Origin: Crocinitomicaceae bacterium
GTDB lineage: Bacteria; Bacteroidota; Bacteroidia; Flavobacteriales_D; Crocinitomicaceae
Direction: 5' to 3'
Assembly: GCA_022447665.1 (NCBI GenBank)
Contig: JAKVAQ010000037.1
Span: 1-45,556, forward strand
Length of the DNA stretch: 45,556 nt
A program made the position numbers and the translations under genes. The notes beneath the pieces were generated by a model. The model was not told the origin of the DNA and searched no databases. It was given only the letters and a program-made list of their open reading frames with translations. Each line of letters starts with the position of its first letter. The stretch's first letter is position 1. Of the stretch, positions 20,620 through 30,924 are shown piece after piece.

Positions 20620-20659
20620 AGACTCAACGGGCAGGTTGGGGATTTTTTGATTGCCAAAA

Positions 20660-23600
20660 ATGTATTTAAATACACACACGTATTACAGTCTGCGTTACGG
20701 AACCATTTCTCCTGAAGAATTACTTCAACTCGCTGTAGCGAATGATATTTCATCGCTTGCTATAACCGACATAAACAACACTTCGGCTTGTTTAGAGGCG
20801 ATCCGTAGAGCACCAAAATTTGGAGTAAAACCAATTCTAGGAATAGACTTTAGAAATGGGATTGAGCAATTATATGTTGCTATTGCCAAGAATAACGATG
20901 GTTTTCAAGAAATGAATACCTACCTCACACAATTTTTGGTCAATAAATCTGAAATTGAAAATGGGGTAAAAGATATCCCGGCCCAAGCGCCAGAATTCGA
21001 AAATGTTTATGTGATTTATCCTTATGAGAAAGGAAAAACATATACCCTTAGGTCTAATGAGTTTATTGGTATTAAGCCAAAAGATTTAGACTATGTACGC
21101 ATTAAAAACGTAGATACGTCAAAGGCGGTAATTCTTCAAACGACAAGCTTTAGAAACAAGAAGGATTTTAATGCACACCGATTACTCAGGGCCATTGATA
21201 AGAATGAGCTATTGAGCAAGCTTCCAGAGTCGGAACAAGCGAATCCGGATGATAAAATGCTCTCAAAAGAGGAACTGCTGACACTTTATCAAGAGCATCC
21301 AAAAATCATTGAAAACACGCAAAAAATATTGGATGATTCGTCTATTGATTTTGATCTTACCGATACGGCTATTCCTCAAAATCAGCGGTATTATACCGAT
21401 TCTGAAGAAGAGGACGAAGAGCTTTTGTTAAAACTATGCGAAGAAGGAATTAAATACCGGTATCCAAATCAAACCGAAGAAATAAAAGCACGAATTAAAA
21501 AGGAACTAGACACCATTCGTGACATGGGCTTTGTTTCTTATTTCTTAATGAATTGGGACATTGTGAACTATGCCCGCTCTAAAGGATATTTTTATGTGGG
21601 TAGAGGGAGTGGAGCGAACTCTGTAATTGCTTACTTATTACGTATTACAGATGTAGATCCTATTGAGCTTGATTTATATTTTGAACGCTTCATTAACCTC
21701 TACCGCGTAAATCCTCCCGACTTTGATATTGACTTTTCTTGGAAAGATAGAGATGATGTAACACGGTATATTTTTGAACGCTTTGATCATGTAGCACTGG
21801 TAGCCACCTACAATACTTTTAAAGATAGAGCAGTACGACGAGAGCTGGGGAAGGTCTTCGGTTTACCAAAAGAAGAGATAGATAAGTTGGGCAAACCCTA
21901 TATTCAGTCATGGGAATTGAATGAATTGAGTCTTTTGGTATTAAAGTACAGCAAGTATATTCACGGGTTTCCAAGTCACTTAAGTATCCATGCCAGTGGG
22001 ATAATTATTTCTGAAAGACCGATTCATTATTTCACACCTACTTTCATGCCTCCTAAAGGTTATCCTACCATTCAGTTTGATATGCATATTGCTGAAGATG
22101 TAGGGCTTTACAAGTTTGATATTCTAAGTCAAAGAGGGCTCGGTAAAATCAAAGATGCACTGGAGTTGATTCGTGTAATGCGTCCTGATGAACCTGATAT
22201 TGACATTCATGATATGCGCAGGTTTAAAGAGGATGAACGCATTAAAAGTATGCTCAGAAATGCAGAAGCAATTGGTTGTTTTTATGTAGAGTCTCCCGCC
22301 ATGCGAATGTTGCTTAGAAAGCTAAGAGTAGACAACTATTTGGGCTTAGTGGCGGCCAGTTCGGTTATTCGTCCTGGAGTAGCACAATCAGGAATGATGC
22401 AGGCCTATATTGAGCGCTATCGTCATCCAGAAAAAAGGAAAGATGCTCACCCGGTTTTATTGGAGCTTATGCCTGAAACTTATGGGGTAATGGTGTACCA
22501 GGAAGATGTGATTAAGGTGGCCCATCATTTTGCAGATTTAACCTTAGGTGAAGCGGATAAAATGAGGAGAGGGATGTCGGGTAAATACCGTTCCAGAGCA
22601 GAGTTTGAGCAAGTAAAAAATAAGTTTTTTGAGAACTGTATTAAGAAAGGACACTCTAAAGAATTGACCGCTGAGGTTTGGCGACAAACTGAGAGTTTTG
22701 CAGGGTATGCATTTGCTAAAGGGCATTCAGCATCTTATGCTGTAGAGAGTTATCAAAGTCTCTTTTTAAAAGCCTATTACCCCTTAGAATATATGGTGGC
22801 GACCATCAATAATTTTGGTGGTTTTTACCGAACAGAATTGTATGTGCACGAGGCAAAATTACACGGAGGAATTATTCATCCACCATGTGTAAACAGAGGC
22901 TTTTACGAAACCATTTTATACGGAAAGGATATTTATTTAGGCTTTAATCAATTGCATTCTTTTGAGTCGCGAACAGCACAAAATATACTGGAAGAACGAC
23001 AAGAGAATGGTCCTTTTTTAAGCTTCAATGATTTTATAGATCGGGTTAAAATTTCTATTGAACAAATAGGTATTCTTATTCGCATTGATGCGCTTCGATT
23101 TACAGGAAAAGACAAAAGAACTTTGTTGTGGGAAGCTCATTTTAAACTGGGAAATACGGGTTTAAAAAAGCATGCGCATAATATGGATTACGCTATGCAA
23201 GATTTGTTTAAGGTTCAGCATAGTGAATATGAAATACCCCAGCTAGAAAACTCATGGAAGGAAGACACCTTTGACCAAATAGAACTGTTGCATTTTCCTT
23301 TGCATTCACCATTTAATATTTTGAGAGATGATGATACTCCTTATGTTTTGGCAAAGGATTTACCAAAATATAAAGACCAAGTGGTATGGATTAAAGGGTA
23401 CTTGATTCACAGAAAAAATACTTCAACCAAGTCAGGCAAGGTCATGTTTTTTGGAACTTTTTTAGATGAGGAAGGTGCTTGGTTAGATTCAGTTCATTTT
23501 CCTCAAATAGCGGCAAAATATCATTTCAGAGGAGGAGGTGTTTACAAGGTGAGAGGGAAAGTAATTGAAGATTATGATTGCTATACGGTAGAAGCTGAAT

Positions 23601-23743
23601 ACATGGAAAAGATTAGTGTGATTGAAGATCCGAGATATTCGGAGGTAAGGGATGAAGAGAAAGAAAAGGTAGTAGTAACAAGAAATAGAAGAATTGATTA
23701 TTGGGTAGATAAAGGAAAGGCTATTGGTGCCAAATCGGCCTAA
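20660..23743 (+). CDS. dnaE2: Error-prone-type DNA polymerase III alpha subunit (short DnaE, DnaE2/ImuC class)
   Basis: 1027 residues from the ATG at 20660; an in-frame TTG nine bases earlier is less likely. The catalytic triad is present: 'PPDFDIDFSW' (Asp356 and Asp358 are the usual pair in P-D-x-D-x-D) and 'YKFDILSQRGL' (Asp487). The PHP domain at the N-terminus reads 'YLNTHTYYSLRYG', with Asn4 where the first metal-binding His of H-x-H-S is expected, so its exonuclease is probably dead. A helix-hairpin-helix region (~780-860) and an OB fold ('VWIKGYLIHRKN', ~900-960) follow. The ~1030-residue size is that of damage-tolerance polymerases, not the ~1200 of replicative DnaE. Pol IV and a radical SAM gene follow, forming a mutagenesis/repair cassette. 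Confidence 0.88.
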   Translation: MYLNTHTYYSLRYGTISPEELLQLAVANDISSLAITDINNTSACLEAIRRAPKFGVKPILGIDFRNGIEQLYVAIAKNNDGFQEMNTYLTQFLVNKSEIENGVKDIPAQAPEFENVYVIYPYEKGKTYTLRSNEFIGIKPKDLDYVRIKNVDTSKAVILQTTSFRNKKDFNAHRLLRAIDKNELLSKLPESEQANPDDKMLSKEELLTLYQEHPKIIENTQKILDDSSIDFDLTDTAIPQNQRYYTDSEEEDEELLLKLCEEGIKYRYPNQTEEIKARIKKELDTIRDMGFVSYFLMNWDIVNYARSKGYFYVGRGSGANSVIAYLLRITDVDPIELDLYFERFINLYRVNPPDFDIDFSWKDRDDVTRYIFERFDHVALVATYNTFKDRAVRRELGKVFGLPKEEIDKLGKPYIQSWELNELSLLVLKYSKYIHGFPSHLSIHASGIIISERPIHYFTPTFMPPKGYPTIQFDMHIAEDVGLYKFDILSQRGLGKIKDALELIRVMRPDEPDIDIHDMRRFKEDERIKSMLRNAEAIGCFYVESPAMRMLLRKLRVDNYLGLVAASSVIRPGVAQSGMMQAYIERYRHPEKRKDAHPVLLELMPETYGVMVYQEDVIKVAHHFADLTLGEADKMRRGMSGKYRSRAEFEQVKNKFFENCIKKGHSKELTAEVWRQTESFAGYAFAKGHSASYAVESYQSLFLKAYYPLEYMVATINNFGGFYRTELYVHEAKLHGGIIHPPCVNRGFYETILYGKDIYLGFNQLHSFESRTAQNILEERQENGPFLSFNDFIDRVKISIEQIGILIRIDALRFTGKDKRTLLWEAHFKLGNTGLKKHAHNMDYAMQDLFKVQHSEYEIPQLENSWKEDTFDQIELLHFPLHSPFNILRDDDTPYVLAKDLPKYKDQVVWIKGYLIHRKNTSTKSGKVMFFGTFLDEEGAWLDSVHFPQIAAKYHFRGGGVYKVRGKVIEDYDCYTVEAEYMEKISVIEDPRYSEVRDEEKEKVVVTRNRRIDYWVDKGKAIGAKSA

Positions 23744-24016
23744 AGTGGCTTGTTCGAGTGCGTGACGAAGGAACGTGTATCGAGAACACACCAAATAAGT
23801 CCGAGTCCCGCACGTGCGGGAAGGTGTCCGTCAAAAGATAAGAGTTGAGTTGGCGTCTCGACTCCGCTCGACGACCAAGAAATAGTTTCTTCCCCCTTTG
23901 GAGGGGGATTGAGGGGGAGGACAAGTGAAAAGATTTAAAATGTTGTAGCAAACAATGACTTCGACAGGCTCAGCTACCTTTTGGGACTGAGTAGAGGAGT
24001 GATTTATATCATTAAT
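23744..24016. repeat. Repeat- and palindrome-rich spacer between the DnaE and Pol IV genes
   Basis: This 273-base spacer is higher in G+C than its surroundings and made of short palindromes. These are CCCGCACGTGCGGG (23807-23820, perfect), CCCCCT-TTGG-AGGGGG (23892-23907), 'TCTCGACTCCGCTCGACGAC' (~23856-23875) and 'CTTCGACAGGCTCAGCTACC' (~23959-23978). I recall the last three types as dispersed intergenic repeats in Bacteroidota genomes. Frames that run through it in several directions look like repeat-derived noise. It separates two genes expected to be co-regulated, so it may hold a terminator for dnaE2 and make dinB depend on its own promoter. Confidence 0.65.
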
Positions 24017-24034
24017 AATTACCATTTGGTAATT
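24017..24034. promoter_or_regulatory. Perfect 8-2-8 palindrome upstream of dinB, putative operator
   Basis: AATTACCA-TT-TGGTAATT is an exact inverted repeat ending 13 bases before the dinB ATG. It has the same 8-2-8 layout as the palindrome before dnaE2 but a different sequence. Its TTTGGTA core resembles the TTTTGGTA of the dnaE2 direct repeats, hinting at shared regulation. Confidence 0.55.
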
Positions 24035-24047
24035 GAAAATTGAGTTT

Positions 24048-25253
24048 ATGAGAGCAGTAATGCACATGGATTTAGACACTTTTTTTGTGTCTTGTGAACG
24101 ATTAATGGATCGTAGATTAATAGGGAAGCCGGTTATGATTGGTGGTACTTCTGATAGAGGGGTGGTAGCAGCTTGTTCCTACGAGGCAAGAAAGTATGGG
24201 GTGCACTCGGCAATGCCTATGCGAATGGCAAAACAGTTGTGCCCCGACGCCATTATTTTAAGGGGGAATTCGGGAGTTTACAGTAAGTTCTCCAATATGG
24301 TAACAGACATTATTAAAGAAGAAGTTCCCTTATACGAGAAAACTTCGGTAGATGAGTTTTATGCTGATTTAACAGGGATGGATCGCTTTTACGGATGCCA
24401 TAAGTTTGCTTCTGAACTCCGCCAACGAATTATTAAAGAAACAATGTTGCCGATTTCTTTTGGACTTTCCCAAAACAAAACAGTTTCAAAAATTGCAACG
24501 GGTGAAGCCAAGCCAAACAATGAAATAGAAGTGAGTAAAGGAACTGAAAAGACTTTCTTAGCCCCTTTGTCGGTGAAGAAAATCCCAATGGTTGGTGATA
24601 AAACCTATCGCACCTTATGTGATTTAGGTGTAAAGCGAATTAAAACCATTCAAGAAATGCCCATAGAGGTCATGGAAAAAGTGTTTGGGAAGAATGGAAT
24701 TATGATTTGGAAAAAGGCGAATGGGATAGATAACTCTCCGGTGATTCCTTACCAAGAACGTAAGTCTATTTCTACTGAACGTACCTTTGATAAAGACACG
24801 ATTGATACGGTAAAACTAGAAGGAATACTAACTGCTATTGCAGAAAATTTAGTGTATCAATTACGACGAGGAAATAAGCTTACTGCATGCATAACCGTAA
24901 AAATTAGGTATTCAGATTTTCAAACCTATACGCTGCAAAAGCGCATACCTTATTCTGCATCAGACAATACCATAATTCCACTGGTAATGGAGTTGTACCG
25001 GAAGCTTTATCAGCGAAGAATGCTTGTGCGCTTGATTGGAGTTCGGTTTAGCCATTTAGTAGAAGGCGGGCATCAAATTAATTTATTCGATGATTCAAAC
25101 ACCATTAAGCTTTACCAAGCTATGGACCATATTCGAGAGCGTTACGGCGACCGATCCATTATGCGTGCTTCTGGTATGGGAGCCAAAAGTATTAGTAGAT
25201 GGAATCCATTCAATGGAGAACCACCACCATTATTAGCCAATAGAAGAAGATAG
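24048..25253 (+). CDS. dinB: DNA polymerase IV (Y-family translesion polymerase)
   Basis: 401 residues from the ATG at 24048; an in-frame TTG at 24033 lies inside the palindrome and is rejected. The Y-family catalytic residues are intact: Asp8 in 'HMDLDTFFVSCER', and Asp102 with Glu103 in 'TSVDEFYADLTG'. It is therefore an active polymerase and not the catalytically dead ImuB that accompanies DnaE2 in proteobacteria. The helix-hairpin-helix ('IPMVGDKTYRTLCDLGVKRI') and little-finger domains follow. 'HQINLFDD' near the C-terminus contains QINLF, a sliding-clamp-binding pentapeptide. It inserts nucleotides opposite damaged bases. It is seven bases from the radical SAM gene and certainly shares its transcript. 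Confidence 0.95.
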   Translation: MRAVMHMDLDTFFVSCERLMDRRLIGKPVMIGGTSDRGVVAACSYEARKYGVHSAMPMRMAKQLCPDAIILRGNSGVYSKFSNMVTDIIKEEVPLYEKTSVDEFYADLTGMDRFYGCHKFASELRQRIIKETMLPISFGLSQNKTVSKIATGEAKPNNEIEVSKGTEKTFLAPLSVKKIPMVGDKTYRTLCDLGVKRIKTIQEMPIEVMEKVFGKNGIMIWKKANGIDNSPVIPYQERKSISTERTFDKDTIDTVKLEGILTAIAENLVYQLRRGNKLTACITVKIRYSDFQTYTLQKRIPYSASDNTIIPLVMELYRKLYQRRMLVRLIGVRFSHLVEGGHQINLFDDSNTIKLYQAMDHIRERYGDRSIMRASGMGAKSISRWNPFNGEPPPLLANRRR

Positions 25254-25260
25254 TCAAGTA

Positions 25261-26334
25261 ATGAAAGAAGAAAATCAAAACATTTTCAAGGGGAGAGGTG
25301 CGCAGTTGAATCCAAAGAATAGATTCGATAAATCAAGCTATGATCATGCGAATGAAAATGATATAGACGTAGATTTTTATGCTGAGGGAAAGAAAACGAG
25401 ATACATAAAAATTCATCCTAAAACCATCGTTAACAAAGTTCCGAGCCCTGATGTACCTATGGAATATTCCTTAAATCCTTACCAAGGATGTGAGCATGGT
25501 TGTACGTATTGTTACGCCAGACCTACCCATGAATATTGGGGTTACAGTGCGGGTTTGGATTTTGAAAGTGTGATTATGGTGAAAGAGAATGCTCCCGAAC
25601 TTTTGCGTCAGACATTGATGAAAAAAAGTTGGAAAGTACATCCAATTGTGTTTTCTGGAAATACCGATTGCTACCAGCCATGTGAAAAGAAGTTTGGAAT
25701 AACACGACAGCTATTAGAAGTTATGCTCGAGTGTAAACACCCAGTAGGTATCATTACCAAAAATATACTGATAAAAAGAGATTTTGATATTGTGAAAGAG
25801 CTCGCAAAACTCAACCTGATTCATGTTCATTTAAGTATAACGACGTTGAATGAGGAGTTGAGAAGAAACCTTGAACCGCGCACAGCAACATCGAAAAGAA
25901 AACTACAACTCGTTAAGGAGCTTAGTGAAATAAATGTACCGGTAACGGTTATGGCCGCGCCCATTATTCCTGGCTTGAGTGATCATGAAATATTACCAAT
26001 AGCGAAGGCGGCTTCTGAAAACCGTGCCAAACAATTTCATACCCATGTGGTCAGATTAATGGGACCGAATGCAGATTTGTTTGAGAACTGGTTAGAAATC
26101 CATTACCCGAATCATAAATCCAAAGTGATGAATCAAATCAAGGATATTCATGGAGGAAAAACAGGGAGTTCAAACTTTGTAGAACGCATGAAAGGACAAG
26201 GAAATTATTCCAATAACATAGGCCAGCTTAAAAAGCTGGCCCAAGCAAAATATTTTCCTGAAGAATTCAAGAGTAACTTAAACAGCGATCTCTTTGTCCG
26301 TCCTTCAAAAAATGGTCAATTGAATCTTTTCTAG
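25261..26334 (+). CDS. PA0069-family radical SAM protein (spore photoproduct lyase-like) ending in a clamp-binding motif
   Basis: 357 residues. The 4Fe-4S/SAM motif is 'GCEHGCTYCYAR' with Cys77, Cys81 and Cys84 (CxxxCxxC). 'FSGNTDCYQPCEKKFGITR' (Cys137, Cys141) and 'VTVMAAPIIPGLSDHEI' match the PA0069/SplB-related radical SAM branch, whose known member spore photoproduct lyase reverses a UV lesion in DNA. The substrate of the PA0069 branch is unknown to me. The extreme C-terminus is NGQLNLF followed by the stop; QLNLF is a near-ideal sliding-clamp-binding pentapeptide (consensus QL[SD]LF). It lies seven bases after dinB, so a role at stalled forks or lesions is a reasonable inference. The 3' end overlaps the convergent TonB receptor gene by four bases. 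Confidence 0.85.
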   Translation: MKEENQNIFKGRGAQLNPKNRFDKSSYDHANENDIDVDFYAEGKKTRYIKIHPKTIVNKVPSPDVPMEYSLNPYQGCEHGCTYCYARPTHEYWGYSAGLDFESVIMVKENAPELLRQTLMKKSWKVHPIVFSGNTDCYQPCEKKFGITRQLLEVMLECKHPVGIITKNILIKRDFDIVKELAKLNLIHVHLSITTLNEELRRNLEPRTATSKRKLQLVKELSEINVPVTVMAAPIIPGLSDHEILPIAKAASENRAKQFHTHVVRLMGPNADLFENWLEIHYPNHKSKVMNQIKDIHGGKTGSSNFVERMKGQGNYSNNIGQLKKLAQAKYFPEEFKSNLNSDLFVRPSKNGQLNLF

Positions 26335-28763
26335 AATTCAAATATGAGACCTATAGTTGGAGTAATTAATGCGCTTTCGTTTGGTATTAATAACGGAACT
26401 CCATTTGAACCATCCGGACTTAAAGGTTGTCCGTCAGTTGTTGCGAATCCCGTATTGTCCTCATTTCTTTGGAATGCATAGAAAGGAGGGGTTTCTTGCG
26501 TAAACGCCAGCATATTTTGAATGTCAATGTAGAAGTCAAAGCTTACTTTCTTCAAGTTTATAATCTTGTCTAGTCTAAAATCTACTTGGTTAAAGGCACG
26601 TAAACGTTCGCTATTAATACTGTTGAAATCTAAGACCCCGTTTCCAGTTAACGCATATACTGCTTGAGATGCTGCAAGGTCCCAAGGTGTGTACGGTAAC
26701 CCACCTGAGAAGCGGTACTTCAAGCCAAGCTTCCATCCTTTTCCGAAGTTCCAACCAAAAGTGGTCGAAATTAAATGTTGACTATCCCAAGCTGATGCAA
26801 TCAATTCTCCATCTGCACCAGAGAAAAGACTTCTTACATATGTATAGCTGAACACGTAGAAGATGTTTTTTACGAGTTTTTGCTGAACAAAAAATTCAAA
26901 ACCATAGGTTTGACCATCTCCAATTGAAGCGACTGCCTCATTTCCGATAGCGCCGAATTCTTGTCCTTGATTTGCCAGTGAAATACCATTCGCAATGGAT
27001 ACAGGATAATTAGAGTATTCCTTGTAAAATGCTTCTGCTGTAATTCTAAGTCCGTTATTTGGTAAGAATTGGGTTCCGATAACATAATGATCAGAGTTAA
27101 TGTACTCCATTGAACGGTTTACTAACTCACCTGCTTCATTTCTATAACCTAAATTGGTATAGGTTGGTATTTTATAATATGTACCAATTGATCCTGTTAA
27201 ATCCCATTTTTCATTCAATCGGTATGCGAATGAAAGTCGAGGAGAAAGTGTTTCAAGCGGGTTATTTCCATTGTCGGTAAAGCTGTTCATATCGGTTCTC
27301 ACACCTGCAGAGATTAAGAGTCTTTCTTTGAAGAAATTCTTCGAAACTTGCGCAAAAGCACCATATCTATAAAAATCAATTTCTGTAGCCGAATTGATCA
27401 CGACTTCTGGTGATATTAAATTGCCTGCACCATCAAATGTAGCTGGGGCTATTTTATTGAAGATGGATGAATTGTACTTGACGTATTGTCCCATTGCTCC
27501 AAATGAATACTTCCATCCATTCTTGTACTTATTAAAGTCAAATCGAAACTTATTTTCAATTTCCTGCGAATTCAAACCAAAGTTTCGGAAGTCTTCATTT
27601 CCATTTTGAGCATCTTCAAATTGATCCAATTGATTATCAAACATATTTCTGCTTAAAGCAAAATTGATAAACCCACCATCAATTCTATGTTTAATGGCTA
27701 CACCATTCGTATAGTTCCATTGTGTTATAAAAGGAAGAGATCTTCTCAAAAACTCCGTTTCATTGTTGTCCTCGCGAGTAGCCGCGAAGTTGAACCGGTC
27801 ATAAGCCCCAAGTCCCAATAAAGTAATACTTGTTTTATCTGAAGGTCTTAAAGTAGTTTTGAACTGAAAGTCACTAAAATTTGGACGAATTGGTAAATCA
27901 ATTAAAGTGAACAGGAAATCTAAATAGGAAGTTCTTGCCGAAACGAGAAAGTCATTTTTTTCTCCTATTGGACCTTCTAACGTTAGAACACTTTCAGTAA
28001 AACTTGCTCTAACATTACCCGATAATTTTTCGCGGTTTCCTTGACGCTGAGAAATGACAAACGTAGATGCTAATGCATTGTCATAACGCGCATCAAAAGC
28101 AGATGAACTTAGTTTTAAATCTTCAATAAATGATACGTTTAGAATTCCTTGCGCCCCACCCGAAGAACCTTGTGTTTGGAAGTGGTTCAATACCGGGATT
28201 TCAATCCCATCTAGGTAATATACGTTTTCATTGGGAGCACCGCCACGAATAATAATATCATTTCGTTGAGCTCCCCCACCAGATCCACCAACACCAGGAA
28301 GTGTTTGTACAACTTTGGATACATCAAAGTTCCCACCTGGGTTTGATTCTATTTCAACAGAAGTTAGTTTTTGCACCGACATAGGTGTAACCATATCTGT
28401 TGTTTTGGCAATCTTGTTTGATTCATAAACAACATCTACAGTGCCTAATTCCGTGCTTGTCTGAGAGAGCTTGAAGTTTACTGTTTCGAAATTTCCAGAA
28501 GAAACCGGGATATTAAATTTCTGCTGAGCTTCATATCCAACAGATGAAACTGACAAGGTATAAGTCCCAACAGGAAGTTCTATCTTATAATTCCCATTGA
28601 AATCTGTTACAGCGCCGTAAGTGGTGTTCTCCACTAAAATTTTGGCAAAAGGAATGGGCTCCTCTGTATTGATATCAATGATGTTCCCTTGAATGGATCC
28701 AGTACTTTGACTTAGTACTGATCCGCTAAACATGAGTGCCAAGATGGCAAATAAAGGTCGCAT
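26331..28763 (-). CDS. TonB-dependent outer-membrane receptor with carboxypeptidase-like regulatory domain
   Basis: 810 residues. After a signal peptide (~1-18, ending SVLSQ) comes a CarboxypepD_reg-like beta-sandwich ('GSIQGNIIDINTEEPIPFAKILVE', ~22-105). A plug domain follows (~125-230, 'TLPGVGGSGGGAQRNDIIIRGG', 'YYLDGIEIPVLNHF'), then a 22-strand barrel closing with 'ALITPTIGLIFEF'. Such receptors import scarce nutrients with energy from TonB-ExbB-ExbD. No SusD partner is adjacent, so a non-glycan substrate is likelier. It is transcribed alone towards the radical SAM gene. Confidence 0.9.
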   Translation of the reverse strand: MRPLFAILALMFSGSVLSQSTGSIQGNIIDINTEEPIPFAKILVENTTYGAVTDFNGNYKIELPVGTYTLSVSSVGYEAQQKFNIPVSSGNFETVNFKLSQTSTELGTVDVVYESNKIAKTTDMVTPMSVQKLTSVEIESNPGGNFDVSKVVQTLPGVGGSGGGAQRNDIIIRGGAPNENVYYLDGIEIPVLNHFQTQGSSGGAQGILNVSFIEDLKLSSSAFDARYDNALASTFVISQRQGNREKLSGNVRASFTESVLTLEGPIGEKNDFLVSARTSYLDFLFTLIDLPIRPNFSDFQFKTTLRPSDKTSITLLGLGAYDRFNFAATREDNNETEFLRRSLPFITQWNYTNGVAIKHRIDGGFINFALSRNMFDNQLDQFEDAQNGNEDFRNFGLNSQEIENKFRFDFNKYKNGWKYSFGAMGQYVKYNSSIFNKIAPATFDGAGNLISPEVVINSATEIDFYRYGAFAQVSKNFFKERLLISAGVRTDMNSFTDNGNNPLETLSPRLSFAYRLNEKWDLTGSIGTYYKIPTYTNLGYRNEAGELVNRSMEYINSDHYVIGTQFLPNNGLRITAEAFYKEYSNYPVSIANGISLANQGQEFGAIGNEAVASIGDGQTYGFEFFVQQKLVKNIFYVFSYTYVRSLFSGADGELIASAWDSQHLISTTFGWNFGKGWKLGLKYRFSGGLPYTPWDLAASQAVYALTGNGVLDFNSINSERLRAFNQVDFRLDKIINLKKVSFDFYIDIQNMLAFTQETPPFYAFQRNEDNTGFATTDGQPLSPDGSNGVPLLIPNESALITPTIGLIFEF

Positions 28764-28828: not shown

Positions 28829-29779
28829 TTAAGCCTCTTTTCTCAAAATATAATCCGCAAAGTATTCCCTGCTATCCAGGATTTTTGAAATGACCTTGAA
28901 ATCAGTATCTCTTAAAATTTTTGAGATGATTTCGTCATTATACTTTCGCGATATCTCCATATGAATTTTTTCACCCTCTTTAAAAATAAAGCTTTTGTCT
29001 AACGCTGAAATTTCAACTTCTTGATCTGATAAAGACTCTATATAGCTCTTGGCAATACCTTCTTCTTCGTCGTAATGAGGAGCGTGCTTGAACTCTCCTA
29101 GATCAAAATTCGCTCCTAACTCAGCATTCATGCGATGTAAAAGATTAATGTTGAATTTGGCGGTAATGCCTTGTGCATCATTATAGGCAGGACCAATAAT
29201 ATCAACACTTTTAATTAAGTCAACGCCTAGTACAAGGATGTCTCCTTTATTAAGGTTTCCTCCCAATTGGTAGAGGAATTCAGCGGACTTTTCATCTTTC
29301 AAATTGCCAATATTAGAGCCCAGGAAAAGTACTACCTTTTTTACATCAACAGCTTTAAATTTTGATAAGACTTCGAAATAATCACCTTGCCGCACTTTTA
29401 CTTTTAATGACGGTATTTCTTCTTGAAGGTCAGCATTTAAAAGGTTTAATGCATTCTGTGATATATCGACTGGTAAGTAGGAGAAGTCGGCACCTTTATG
29501 AACTAGCGCTTTCAGTAATTCTTTAGTTTTAGTTCCATCACCCGCTCCTAGCTCAATTAGTTCGAACTTTTCATTGTCTTCAATACCAAAAGAGTTAATA
29601 AGCTCATCTGTTTTTTTGGAAAAAATTTCAAATTCACTATTGGTTAAATAGTATTCTGGCATGTTCATGATCTGAACAAATAAATCATCCCCTATTTTAT
29701 CGTAAAAATACTTGGATGAAAGAAATTTTGGGTTGGATGATAATCCTTCAAGGACATCATTTTTGAATTGTTCGTTCAT
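28829..29779 (-). CDS. egtD: L-histidine N-alpha-methyltransferase (ergothioneine synthesis)
   Basis: 316 residues, typical EgtD length. 'SSKYFYDKIGDDLFVQIMNMPEYYLTNSE' at residues ~23-51 and the SAM-binding 'FELIELGAGDGTKTKELL' (~76-93) are family signatures. It converts histidine to trimethylhistidine (hercynine) with three SAM. The ATG overlaps the egtB stop by one base (TAATG), so egtB and egtD are translationally coupled. The ~65 bases between it and the upstream end of the TonB receptor gene hold that receptor's promoter. Confidence 0.95.
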   Translation of the reverse strand: MNEQFKNDVLEGLSSNPKFLSSKYFYDKIGDDLFVQIMNMPEYYLTNSEFEIFSKKTDELINSFGIEDNEKFELIELGAGDGTKTKELLKALVHKGADFSYLPVDISQNALNLLNADLQEEIPSLKVKVRQGDYFEVLSKFKAVDVKKVVLFLGSNIGNLKDEKSAEFLYQLGGNLNKGDILVLGVDLIKSVDIIGPAYNDAQGITAKFNINLLHRMNAELGANFDLGEFKHAPHYDEEEGIAKSYIESLSDQEVEISALDKSFIFKEGEKIHMEISRKYNDEIISKILRDTDFKVISKILDSREYFADYILRKEA

Positions 29780-30924
29780 TATTTAGCTAGTCTAATTCCA
29801 GTATATTGCCACTGGTAGTGCGGGTGAAAGAAATTTCTATAGGTTTTTCTGCTGTGTCCTTCTGCCGTTGCTGTAGAGCCACCTCTAAGCACCATTTGAT
29901 TTACCATGAACTTACCATTGTATTCGCCCAAGGCACCTGACGCAATTTTGAAGTTAGGATATGGAAGATATGCGGAGTTTGTCCATTCCCATCTTACACC
30001 CCAATCTAATTTATCTGCGGCTACTTCCCACTCAAATTCAGTGGGTAATCGCATTCCGTTCCAGAAAGCAAAAGCGCTGGCCTCATAAAATGAAATGTGT
30101 GCAAGTACTTTATTTGGATCTACCTTTTTAAGACCTGCGAGGGTATAATGATGCCATTCACCATTTATTTTATACCAGTAAAGAGGAGACTCAATTCCGT
30201 TCTCGTTGACCCATGCCCATCCTTCATCTAACCAATATTGGAATGAGGAATAACCTCCGGCCTCAATAAATTCAATGAATTCTCCATTGGTAACCAAAGA
30301 ATTGGAAATCTCAAATTCATGAATGTAAACCTTGTGTCTTCCCAACTCATTATCAAAACAGAATTCATCACCATGATGGCCAATTTCGAAAACACCTTCT
30401 TCGATTTTTACAAAACCAGAAGCTTCATTGGTTGAATTAGTAAGATCAGTATCCGCGTCATAAACTGGAAATAGTGGATTATGCCCGAGGGTATATTTTA
30501 GATCTGTAATCAAGAGTTCCTGGTGCTGCTGCTCATGATTTAATCCTATTAAAAGGACTTTCTCAAAATCATTGTCCCCACTTTGAAGAAGTTTCATCAT
30601 TGCCTCATCAACATACTTACGGTATGCAAATACTTCTTCTACCGAAGGTCGGGTTATATTCCCTCGATCGGCTCTAAAGGTTCTCTCTCCAACTGTATTG
30701 TAATAACTGTTGAATAGGAATGAAAAATCCTTGTCGTAGACTGAATATCCATCAAGATATTTCTCTAGAATGAAGGCTTCGAAAAACCACGTGGTATGGG
30801 CTAAATGCCATTTTGGTGGACTAGCAAATACAACAGGCTGAGGAACATAATCCTCAATTTTCAAAGGTGCACAAATCTCTTCTGTTCGTGCGCGTACGGT
30901 TAAAAATAGGTCTTTAGGTGTCAT
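29779..30924 (-). CDS. egtB: Ergothioneine biosynthesis sulfoxide synthase
   Basis: 381 residues. The N-terminal DinB_2-like domain supplies the iron-binding triad: His43 in 'HLAHTTWFFE' and His130 and His134 in 'LNHEQQHQELL'. A C-terminal FGE-sulfatase domain (~170-381, 'MRLPTEFEWEVAA', 'VLRGGSTATAEGH', 'YQWQYTGIRLAK') binds hercynine. The enzyme uses O2 and iron to join the sulfur of cysteine or gamma-glutamylcysteine to hercynine. No egtA, egtC or egtE is nearby, which favours direct use of cysteine with a C-S lyase encoded elsewhere; this is inference. It abuts the DUF427 gene without a gap. Confidence 0.94.
   Translation of the reverse strand: MTPKDLFLTVRARTEEICAPLKIEDYVPQPVVFASPPKWHLAHTTWFFEAFILEKYLDGYSVYDKDFSFLFNSYYNTVGERTFRADRGNITRPSVEEVFAYRKYVDEAMMKLLQSGDNDFEKVLLIGLNHEQQHQELLITDLKYTLGHNPLFPVYDADTDLTNSTNEASGFVKIEEGVFEIGHHGDEFCFDNELGRHKVYIHEFEISNSLVTNGEFIEFIEAGGYSSFQYWLDEGWAWVNENGIESPLYWYKINGEWHHYTLAGLKKVDPNKVLAHISFYEASAFAFWNGMRLPTEFEWEVAADKLDWGVRWEWTNSAYLPYPNFKIASGALGEYNGKFMVNQMVLRGGSTATAEGHSRKTYRNFFHPHYQWQYTGIRLAK

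Follow-up and report, generated by a model that had tools for sequence, protein, structure and literature searches.

The dinB-radical SAM locus

The window, by which we mean the whole stretch of 45,556 nucleotides analysed here from a Crocinitomicaceae bacterium (contig JAKVAQ010000037.1), encodes on its forward strand a PA0069-family radical SAM protein of 357 amino acids (25261 to 26334). The protein has a CX3CX2C motif at residues 77 to 84 and a predicted fold like that of spore photoproduct lyase (SPL). It matched the PA0069 family model NF033668 with 458.3 bits against a cut-off of 360, over positions 1 to 348 of 348, and the radical SAM superfamily model PF04055 with 74.7 bits (cut-off 29.5), in agreement with the PA0069-type assignment made in a preliminary description of this DNA. 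In the ORF translation the C-terminus reads ...RPSKNGQLNLF, followed by the stop codon at 26332 to 26334. The last five residues, QLNLF (residues 353 to 357, 26317 to 26331, plus strand), come after a variable linker and are a predicted beta-clamp-binding motif. Among 27 likely genes of the window, taken from its 36 ORFs of 100 amino acids or more, the radical SAM gene was the only one whose product has the pattern Q..[LMI][FL] within its last 25 residues.

The gene upstream, on the same strand, encodes DinB (DNA polymerase IV; 24048 to 25253, 401 amino acids), which passed the cut-off of the Pol IV equivalog NF002677. Its ORF is open from a TTG at 24033, with the ATG at 24048 as the likely start. 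Seven nucleotides separate the dinB stop codon from the radical SAM ATG, and the two genes are probably in one transcript. DinB carries a predicted clamp-binding motif of its own, QINLF (residues 343 to 347, 25074 to 25088, plus strand), 54 residues before its end. The preliminary description had pointed to the exactly terminal QLNLF and to the QINLF of the polymerase seven bases upstream, and both were confirmed by the ORF translations and coordinates.

Upstream of dinB lies a gene for a DNA polymerase III alpha-type (DnaE-like) polymerase of 1030 amino acids (20651 to 23743, plus strand), itself preceded by two genes that match bestrophin and TerB. Towards its end the DnaE-type polymerase lacks a canonical clamp motif; candidates elsewhere in it are QSLFL (702), QIGIL (805), MQDLF (849) and QIELL (876). 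The pairing of a DnaE-type with a Y-family polymerase on one strand is also found in the imuA-imuB-dnaE2 and Bacteroidetes dinB-dnaE operons described in excerpts of PMC8565304. The window differs from imuA-imuB-dnaE2 cassettes, in which ImuA and ImuB adjoin DnaE2: ImuA is absent from the scanned neighbours, the Y-family polymerase is DinB and the third gene encodes the radical SAM enzyme.

The gene downstream of the radical SAM gene (26331 to 28763) is on the opposite strand. Beyond it, 28829 to 30924 encodes an EgtB-like protein (over the cut-off of TIGR03440 with 528 bits, under that of the SenA model with 333) and an EgtD-like histidine methyltransferase slightly under cut-off (280.3 of 290.9). 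Judged from these matches, the two are likely an ergothioneine-type pair.

Candidate regulatory sites

A perfect 8-bp inverted repeat, AATTACCA-TT-TGGTAATT (24017 to 24034), lies 13 nucleotides before the likely dinB ATG and is a candidate operator. One place in the genome matched it with fewer than three mismatches. When up to three were permitted, there were 12 forward and 12 reverse matches, as against 7 and 11 for a control pattern. A regulon sharing this palindrome was rejected, as the palindrome was not enriched genome-wide and there were no other strong sites.

Excerpts of PMC8565304 report COG1533 ‘SplB’ genes and dinB-dnaE operons in predicted Bacteroidetes SOS regulons, and excerpts of PMC3765255 report, from neighbourhood analysis, genes with an ImuB-C domain in operons with SplB-like enzymes; the COG1533 subfamily is not specified in the excerpts of either paper. 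Neither of the published Bacteroidetes SOS operators was in excess within the window. GGA-N5-TCC occurred 7 times (8.2 expected), once between dnaE and dinB (23819 to 23829), and CTAA-N5-TTAG had no exact match and 28 matches with one mismatch (27.8 expected). The gap between dnaE and dinB (23744 to 24010) contains several short inverted repeats and by eye resembles a repetitive intergenic element.

Recovery of family members

The PA0069 family is common, yet no tested function was found for it. NF033668 was over cut-off in 139 of the 395 genomes surveyed from the window’s phylum, Bacteroidota, and in 72 of 229 gammaproteobacterial genomes; within the window’s own GTDB family the gene is patchy (12 of 60 genomes). 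The 139 phylum genomes held 141 over-cut-off places, two genomes having two each, and this set minus the window plus one sub-cut-off member (G370) gave 141 proteins. The gammaproteobacterial genomes yielded 71 proteins, since one repeated a locus from a scan of named GTDB contigs. That scan returned almost only Proteobacteria, and the best 80 of its 590 places were used, the places being chosen by core peptides and ranked by whole-protein similarity to the tailed query. From a plasmid search, 7 of 25 records with at least 80% query coverage were fetched, plus three actinomycete records below 80%, and one more was added from a second search.

Three kinds of entry were dropped: ORFs below 250 bits against the A1 profile, ORFs truncated by the end of a contig, and repeats. 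The non-redundant set consisted of 315 proteins (336 ORFs before repeats were removed) from the window’s phylum, Proteobacteria and, with four proteins, actinomycetes. Because the tail columns are part of both NF033668 and the A1 profile, the selection leans slightly to tailed proteins. As background we used the 1333 other genes of the same loci, which are mechanical ORFs of at least 150 amino acids, some of them spurious, within fetched flanks of 1.5 to 5 kb, some ended by contig ends. The tree of members was made with FastTree and midpoint-rooted; support was not used, and the labels of 30 exceptions were set by eye. In one genome of the window’s own family (G030) a member is split into two ORFs (L014 and L018), the second of which still ends in EQLGLFE.

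Conservation of the C-terminal motif

Q..[LMI][FL] was present in the last 25 residues of 285 of the 315 members and of 24 of the 1333 background genes. In 215 members it was exactly terminal, compared with two background genes. When member tails were shuffled, 5.5% had the motif in the last 25 residues and 0.22% had it at the end. A loose pattern that also admitted six-residue forms and endings in W, I or V matched 307 members and 68 background genes, and the stricter Q-phi-x[LM](x)[FL] matched 253 and 13. The background genes with Q..LF in the last 25 residues or with a terminal match (13 listed) were mostly 2H phosphoesterases from a single family of the phylum (f4), described below.

The preliminary description had proposed scoring a C-terminal QxxLF across PA0069 proteins from Bacteroidota; in the wider form Q..[LMI][FL] the motif was present in 130 of the 141 proteins of the window’s phylum. 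By group, the tail was found in the window, in 10 of 11 proteins of its own family, 59 of 71 from Gammaproteobacteria, 74 of 80 from the named-contig scan (best 80 of 590) and 7 of 7 from plasmids. It was also found in all four Rv2578c-type proteins examined, one annotated as such and three assigned by similarity, with the motif at the terminus; NF038135 (rSAM_Rv2578c) comprises the nearest NCBIfam relatives of NF033668 (rSAM_PA0069), which includes the window protein. In an alignment of 316 rows, Q353 was kept in 305, L356 in 296 and F357 in 267, after the variable linker, while core identity among sampled pairs of members was as low as 28%. On this comparative evidence, the view that the tail is a real, selected feature of the whole PA0069 family and of four Rv2578c-type sister proteins is strongly supported.

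The position of the motif is less constant than its presence. Further residues come after it in 70 of the 285 motif-bearing members, and the tree implies 51 changes between ending and not ending in the five-residue form. The six-residue form occurs in 12 scattered members, with 11 changes. The pLDDT of the predicted structure is 64 in the last block, against 75 to 98 over residues 41 to 350. Since both the length of the motif and the end of the protein change repeatedly on the tree, the tail appears to be a short linear motif that shifts position and is retained for the sake of a partner, and not a piece of the fixed fold. Interchange of five- and six-residue forms would be expected if conservation lies in the groove of the clamp.

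Similarity to known clamp ligands

The clamp-binding consensus is given as QL[S/D]LF in excerpts of PMC3716654 and PMC9690074. A revised consensus, in an excerpt of PMC13254535, has a first form, Q-phi-x[L/M][F/L], and a second, Q-phi-x[L/M]x[F/L], which the six-residue tails of members fit. Among the 285 motif-bearing members, position 2 was L or M in 234, position 3 was S in 77, D in 31, R in 30, N in 28 and E in 27, position 4 was L in 274 and position 5 was F or L. In the window protein QLNLF falls within Q-phi-x[L/M](x)[F/L] in an accessible, flexible place: it is terminal, it lies in the low-pLDDT end and it is conserved in the family.

According to PMC3716654, the clamp motif crystallised from E. 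coli UmuC is 357-QLNLF-361, letter for letter the tail of the window protein. The E. coli Pol II motif QLGLF and the RecB motif QVEMEF, as quoted in source excerpts, are of the same five- or six-residue type as the PA0069-clade tails. UmuC, Pol II and RecB are not radical SAM enzymes, however, and clamp binding by the window protein is a prediction.

Members and relatives without the tail

The motif glutamine was absent from eight of the 315 members, four in GTDB family f8 and four in f37, for which the tree infers two losses. The ends SLSLF, TLSLF, TLSFDFG and YNLFPT occur among the f8 proteins (L037, L040, L299 and L306). The f37 proteins (L030, L332, L307 and L346) come from two genomes with two copies each, all four without the glutamine. 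As eight members lack this residue, including both copies in two genomes, the tail is not indispensable everywhere.

Relatives on viral contigs were sampled as the best 80 of 274, of which 63 had usable C-termini. The five-residue form had no match in 61 of these 63, and the loosest pattern matched six. The two five-residue matches were L370, a family member by score (376 bits) which is perhaps cellular DNA or a prophage, and L435, with QKFLL away from the end. Among phage records, 9 of 50,697 matched the query, none over 80% of its length. Five low-scoring relatives from the window’s own family (L015, L016, L017, L019 and L020) also lacked the tail, with QYGLPL of L016 matching by the loosest pattern only. 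A Gemmatimonadota relative (L363, 231 bits) ends in QLSLGI, which was read as a six-residue form. Given its scarcity in viral and low-scoring relatives, the tail can be considered a mark of the PA0069/Rv2578c clade, which it sets apart from viral SPL-like proteins.

Gene neighbourhoods

DinB was found in the same operon at only two of the 315 loci, within the fetched flanks of 1.5 to 5 kb. Besides the window this was a gammaproteobacterial locus (L232:243-2541), an independent DinB-radical SAM pair in which DinB has QLELF and the enzyme QLALF. The trio of DnaE, DinB and radical SAM genes occurred only in the window among the 315 loci, again within the fetched flanks. On the flanks covered, coupling to Pol IV is therefore rejected as a family rule. 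As a gene arrangement, the coupling proposed in the preliminary description is local to the window and L232; a UmuC-type polymerase lies on the other strand, within about 2.3 kb, at eight more loci. The tail was retained in L232, the sole other homologue found in one operon with dinB, where its absence would have spoken against the proposal.

Those eight loci belong to f4, a family of the window’s phylum. A 2H phosphoesterase gene was present in 10 of the 11 f4 loci (L064, L068, L074, L077, L080, L081, L085, L089, L093 and L337), on the same strand within 300 bp in nine, and as a tandem pair in several. PF13563 was over cut-off in four of the six proteins scanned, and the rest were assigned by similarity. 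One copy of the phosphoesterase itself carries a clamp-like motif at its C-terminus (such as QGELF, QGSLF or QAMLF) in nine of these ten loci, and QGELY is found in the remaining one. A search of the window’s own genome, which had no positive control, did not find a 2H phosphoesterase. In the literature searched, a jumbo-phage review was the only paper to mention 2H phosphoesterases together with the sliding clamp.

RNase HII was found in 49, CcrM in 29 and MoaB in 35 of the 80 named-contig loci (best 80 of 590; L132 and L140 to L219, mainly Alphaproteobacteria), and RNase HII lay on the same strand within 300 bp at 35 of all 315 loci. Other common neighbours, in part of the window’s phylum, included PdxH and thioredoxin-like and amidohydrolase-like proteins, the last two assigned by eye. 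As the neighbours vary by lineage and include genes without a DNA role (PdxH and MoaB), they fix no single pathway. Linkage to genes for replication and lesion processing recurs; the partners vary between lineages and the clamp tail persists.

Predicted fold and catalytic residues

The predicted model of the window protein has a mean pLDDT of 85.8. In a fold search with this model SPL was the best match, with a Z of 19.5, an rmsd of 3.5 over 271 aligned residues and 13% identity, and the top six rows, with Z between 18.9 and 19.5, were all SPL structures (PDB 4fhc, 4fhe-4fhg, 4k9r and 4rh0). The next family had a Z of 14.2. The likeness to SPL came from the fold search; a PDB profile search with A1 gave SkfB and NifB and not SPL, and none of the window protein’s six NCBIfam matches was to a family named spore photoproduct lyase. 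In Alphaproteobacteria the SPL model TIGR03886 matched 3 of 58 genomes, all under cut-off, and one of these was used to fetch the PDB SPL alignment.

The cluster cysteines C77, C81 and C84 were kept in 314, 314 and 315 of the 316 alignment rows. Like SPL, the clade has CX3CX2C with a tyrosine before the last cysteine: the Y96-like tyrosine was kept in 314 rows, and the Y98-like residue was Y in 186 and F in 127. SPL, according to an excerpt of PMC3742179, relies on a tyrosine and on a fourth cysteine as H donor (C141 in B. subtilis, C140 in Geobacillus). Unlike in SPL, this essential cysteine has no conserved counterpart in the clade. No further column had cysteine in half of the 316 rows, and the column judged by eye from the sequence alignment to be equivalent to C140 held G in 156, T in 91, A in 31 and I in 16. 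The window protein does have cysteines near that column, at 137 (where the column is C in 98 and P in 155 of 316 rows) and at 141 (where C is not among the four commonest residues). As modelled, then, the window protein is SPL-like in fold, without a conserved counterpart of SPL’s defining fourth cysteine. The preliminary description had invoked a best-studied relative that repairs a UV photoproduct; the kinship is upheld by the predicted fold, but not by the fourth cysteine. The enzyme probably does not simply act on the spore photoproduct.

Possible function at the clamp

We suggest that the PA0069/Rv2578c clade comprises SPL-fold radical SAM enzymes that are tethered to the clamp by a C-terminal QL[S/D]LF-type motif and process nucleotides in DNA, a reading that we consider likely as a whole. 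The tail would dock in the ligand groove of the clamp, as the identical UmuC peptide does, and this step we hold to be highly probable. Docking would bring the enzyme to DNA that is stalled or has just been replicated, and there it might share the two clamp pockets with polymerases, or compete with them for these pockets, for example with the Pol IV encoded seven nucleotides upstream. The sequence of the tail thus suggests that the enzyme works on DNA at the replication fork or immediately behind it. A 5′-deoxyadenosyl radical would take a hydrogen from one of the nucleotides of the DNA, by which a nucleotide that is damaged or abnormal would be reversed or processed. That the enzyme acts on DNA is, in our judgement, probable; its reversing lesions directly is a guess to which we give somewhat less than even weight. 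A broader scheme, in which PA0069/Rv2578c proteins are phylum-spanning, replication-coupled radical DNA enzymes that reverse lesions or edit by non-SPL chemistry and associate with lineage-specific clamp-holding partners, is offered tentatively. The partners in such a scheme would be Pol IV in the window and the clamp-tailed 2H phosphoesterase beside UmuC in f4.

A chance occurrence of a low-information QxxLF in one protein has a negligible probability. The motif is short enough to arise somewhere in 5.5% of shuffled tails, but chance is refuted by its conservation in 285 of 315 members, sampled pairs of which share as little as 28% core identity, as against 24 of 1333 background genes. The tail could be conserved for another reason, as a C-terminal degron or a fixed intramolecular latch. 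Hydrophobic C-termini can act as protease signals, and in 215 of the 315 members the motif is at the extreme C-terminus. However, residues after the motif in 70 of 285 members, the 51 changes of terminal form, the interchange of five- and six-residue forms, the glutamine as the best-kept tail residue and the pLDDT of 64 in the last block all argue against a degron or latch, which we regard as very unlikely.

Other explanations accept the clamp and differ in the chemistry. A true SPL-type lyase, incidentally tethered to the clamp and reversing 5-thyminyl-5,6-dihydrothymine or a similar UV dimer near the fork, would account for the best structural match (Z 19.5 over 271 residues at 13% identity), for a CX3C-x-Y-C-[Y/F] that resembles the SPL motif with Y96 and Y98, and for the SOS regulation of COG1533 predicted for Bacteroidetes in the excerpts of PMC8565304. 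It is difficult to reconcile with a mostly G, T, A or I column in place of the H-donor cysteine, with F for Y98 in 127 of 316 rows and with the lack of an SPL-named family among the six NCBIfam matches, and we think it quite improbable. Alternatively, the enzyme could modify bases, or act on ribonucleotides in new DNA, together with RNase HII, CcrM or the 2H phosphoesterase, and repair no damage. The frequency of RNase HII (49 of 80) and CcrM (29 of 80) among the best 80 of 590 named-contig loci, the 35 of 315 loci with RNase HII close by on the same strand and the clamp-tailed phosphoesterase of f4 would fit such editing. Against this, the RNase HII and CcrM neighbourhood may be plain alphaproteobacterial synteny, apart from the cluster cysteines none is conserved that could serve in ribose reduction, and quite different neighbours are found in other lineages. 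We consider this explanation unlikely. Returning to the clamp-tethered reading, the tail is observed generally, whereas linkage to Pol IV is a local matter, and lesion reversal is plausible.

The preliminary description knew of no report of clamp recruitment for this family, and none was found in the literature searched, which held few subscription papers. Within that same literature no paper pairs radical SAM with the beta clamp, COG1533 with the clamp or PA0069 with radical SAM. Papers there that mention both radical SAM and the sliding clamp apparently do not concern a clamp-tailed radical SAM enzyme, and Rv2578c is only mentioned, without a tested function for the PA0069 family. A clamp tail on an SPL-like radical SAM enzyme would thus be a new combination of two known kinds. 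If the proposal is true, oxygen-sensitive radical chemistry would take place at the replication fork, as a means of dealing with damaged DNA that is distinct from excision and bypass. The tail tells where the enzyme would work and makes the PA0069 family directly testable: mutation of five residues should separate recruitment from catalysis.
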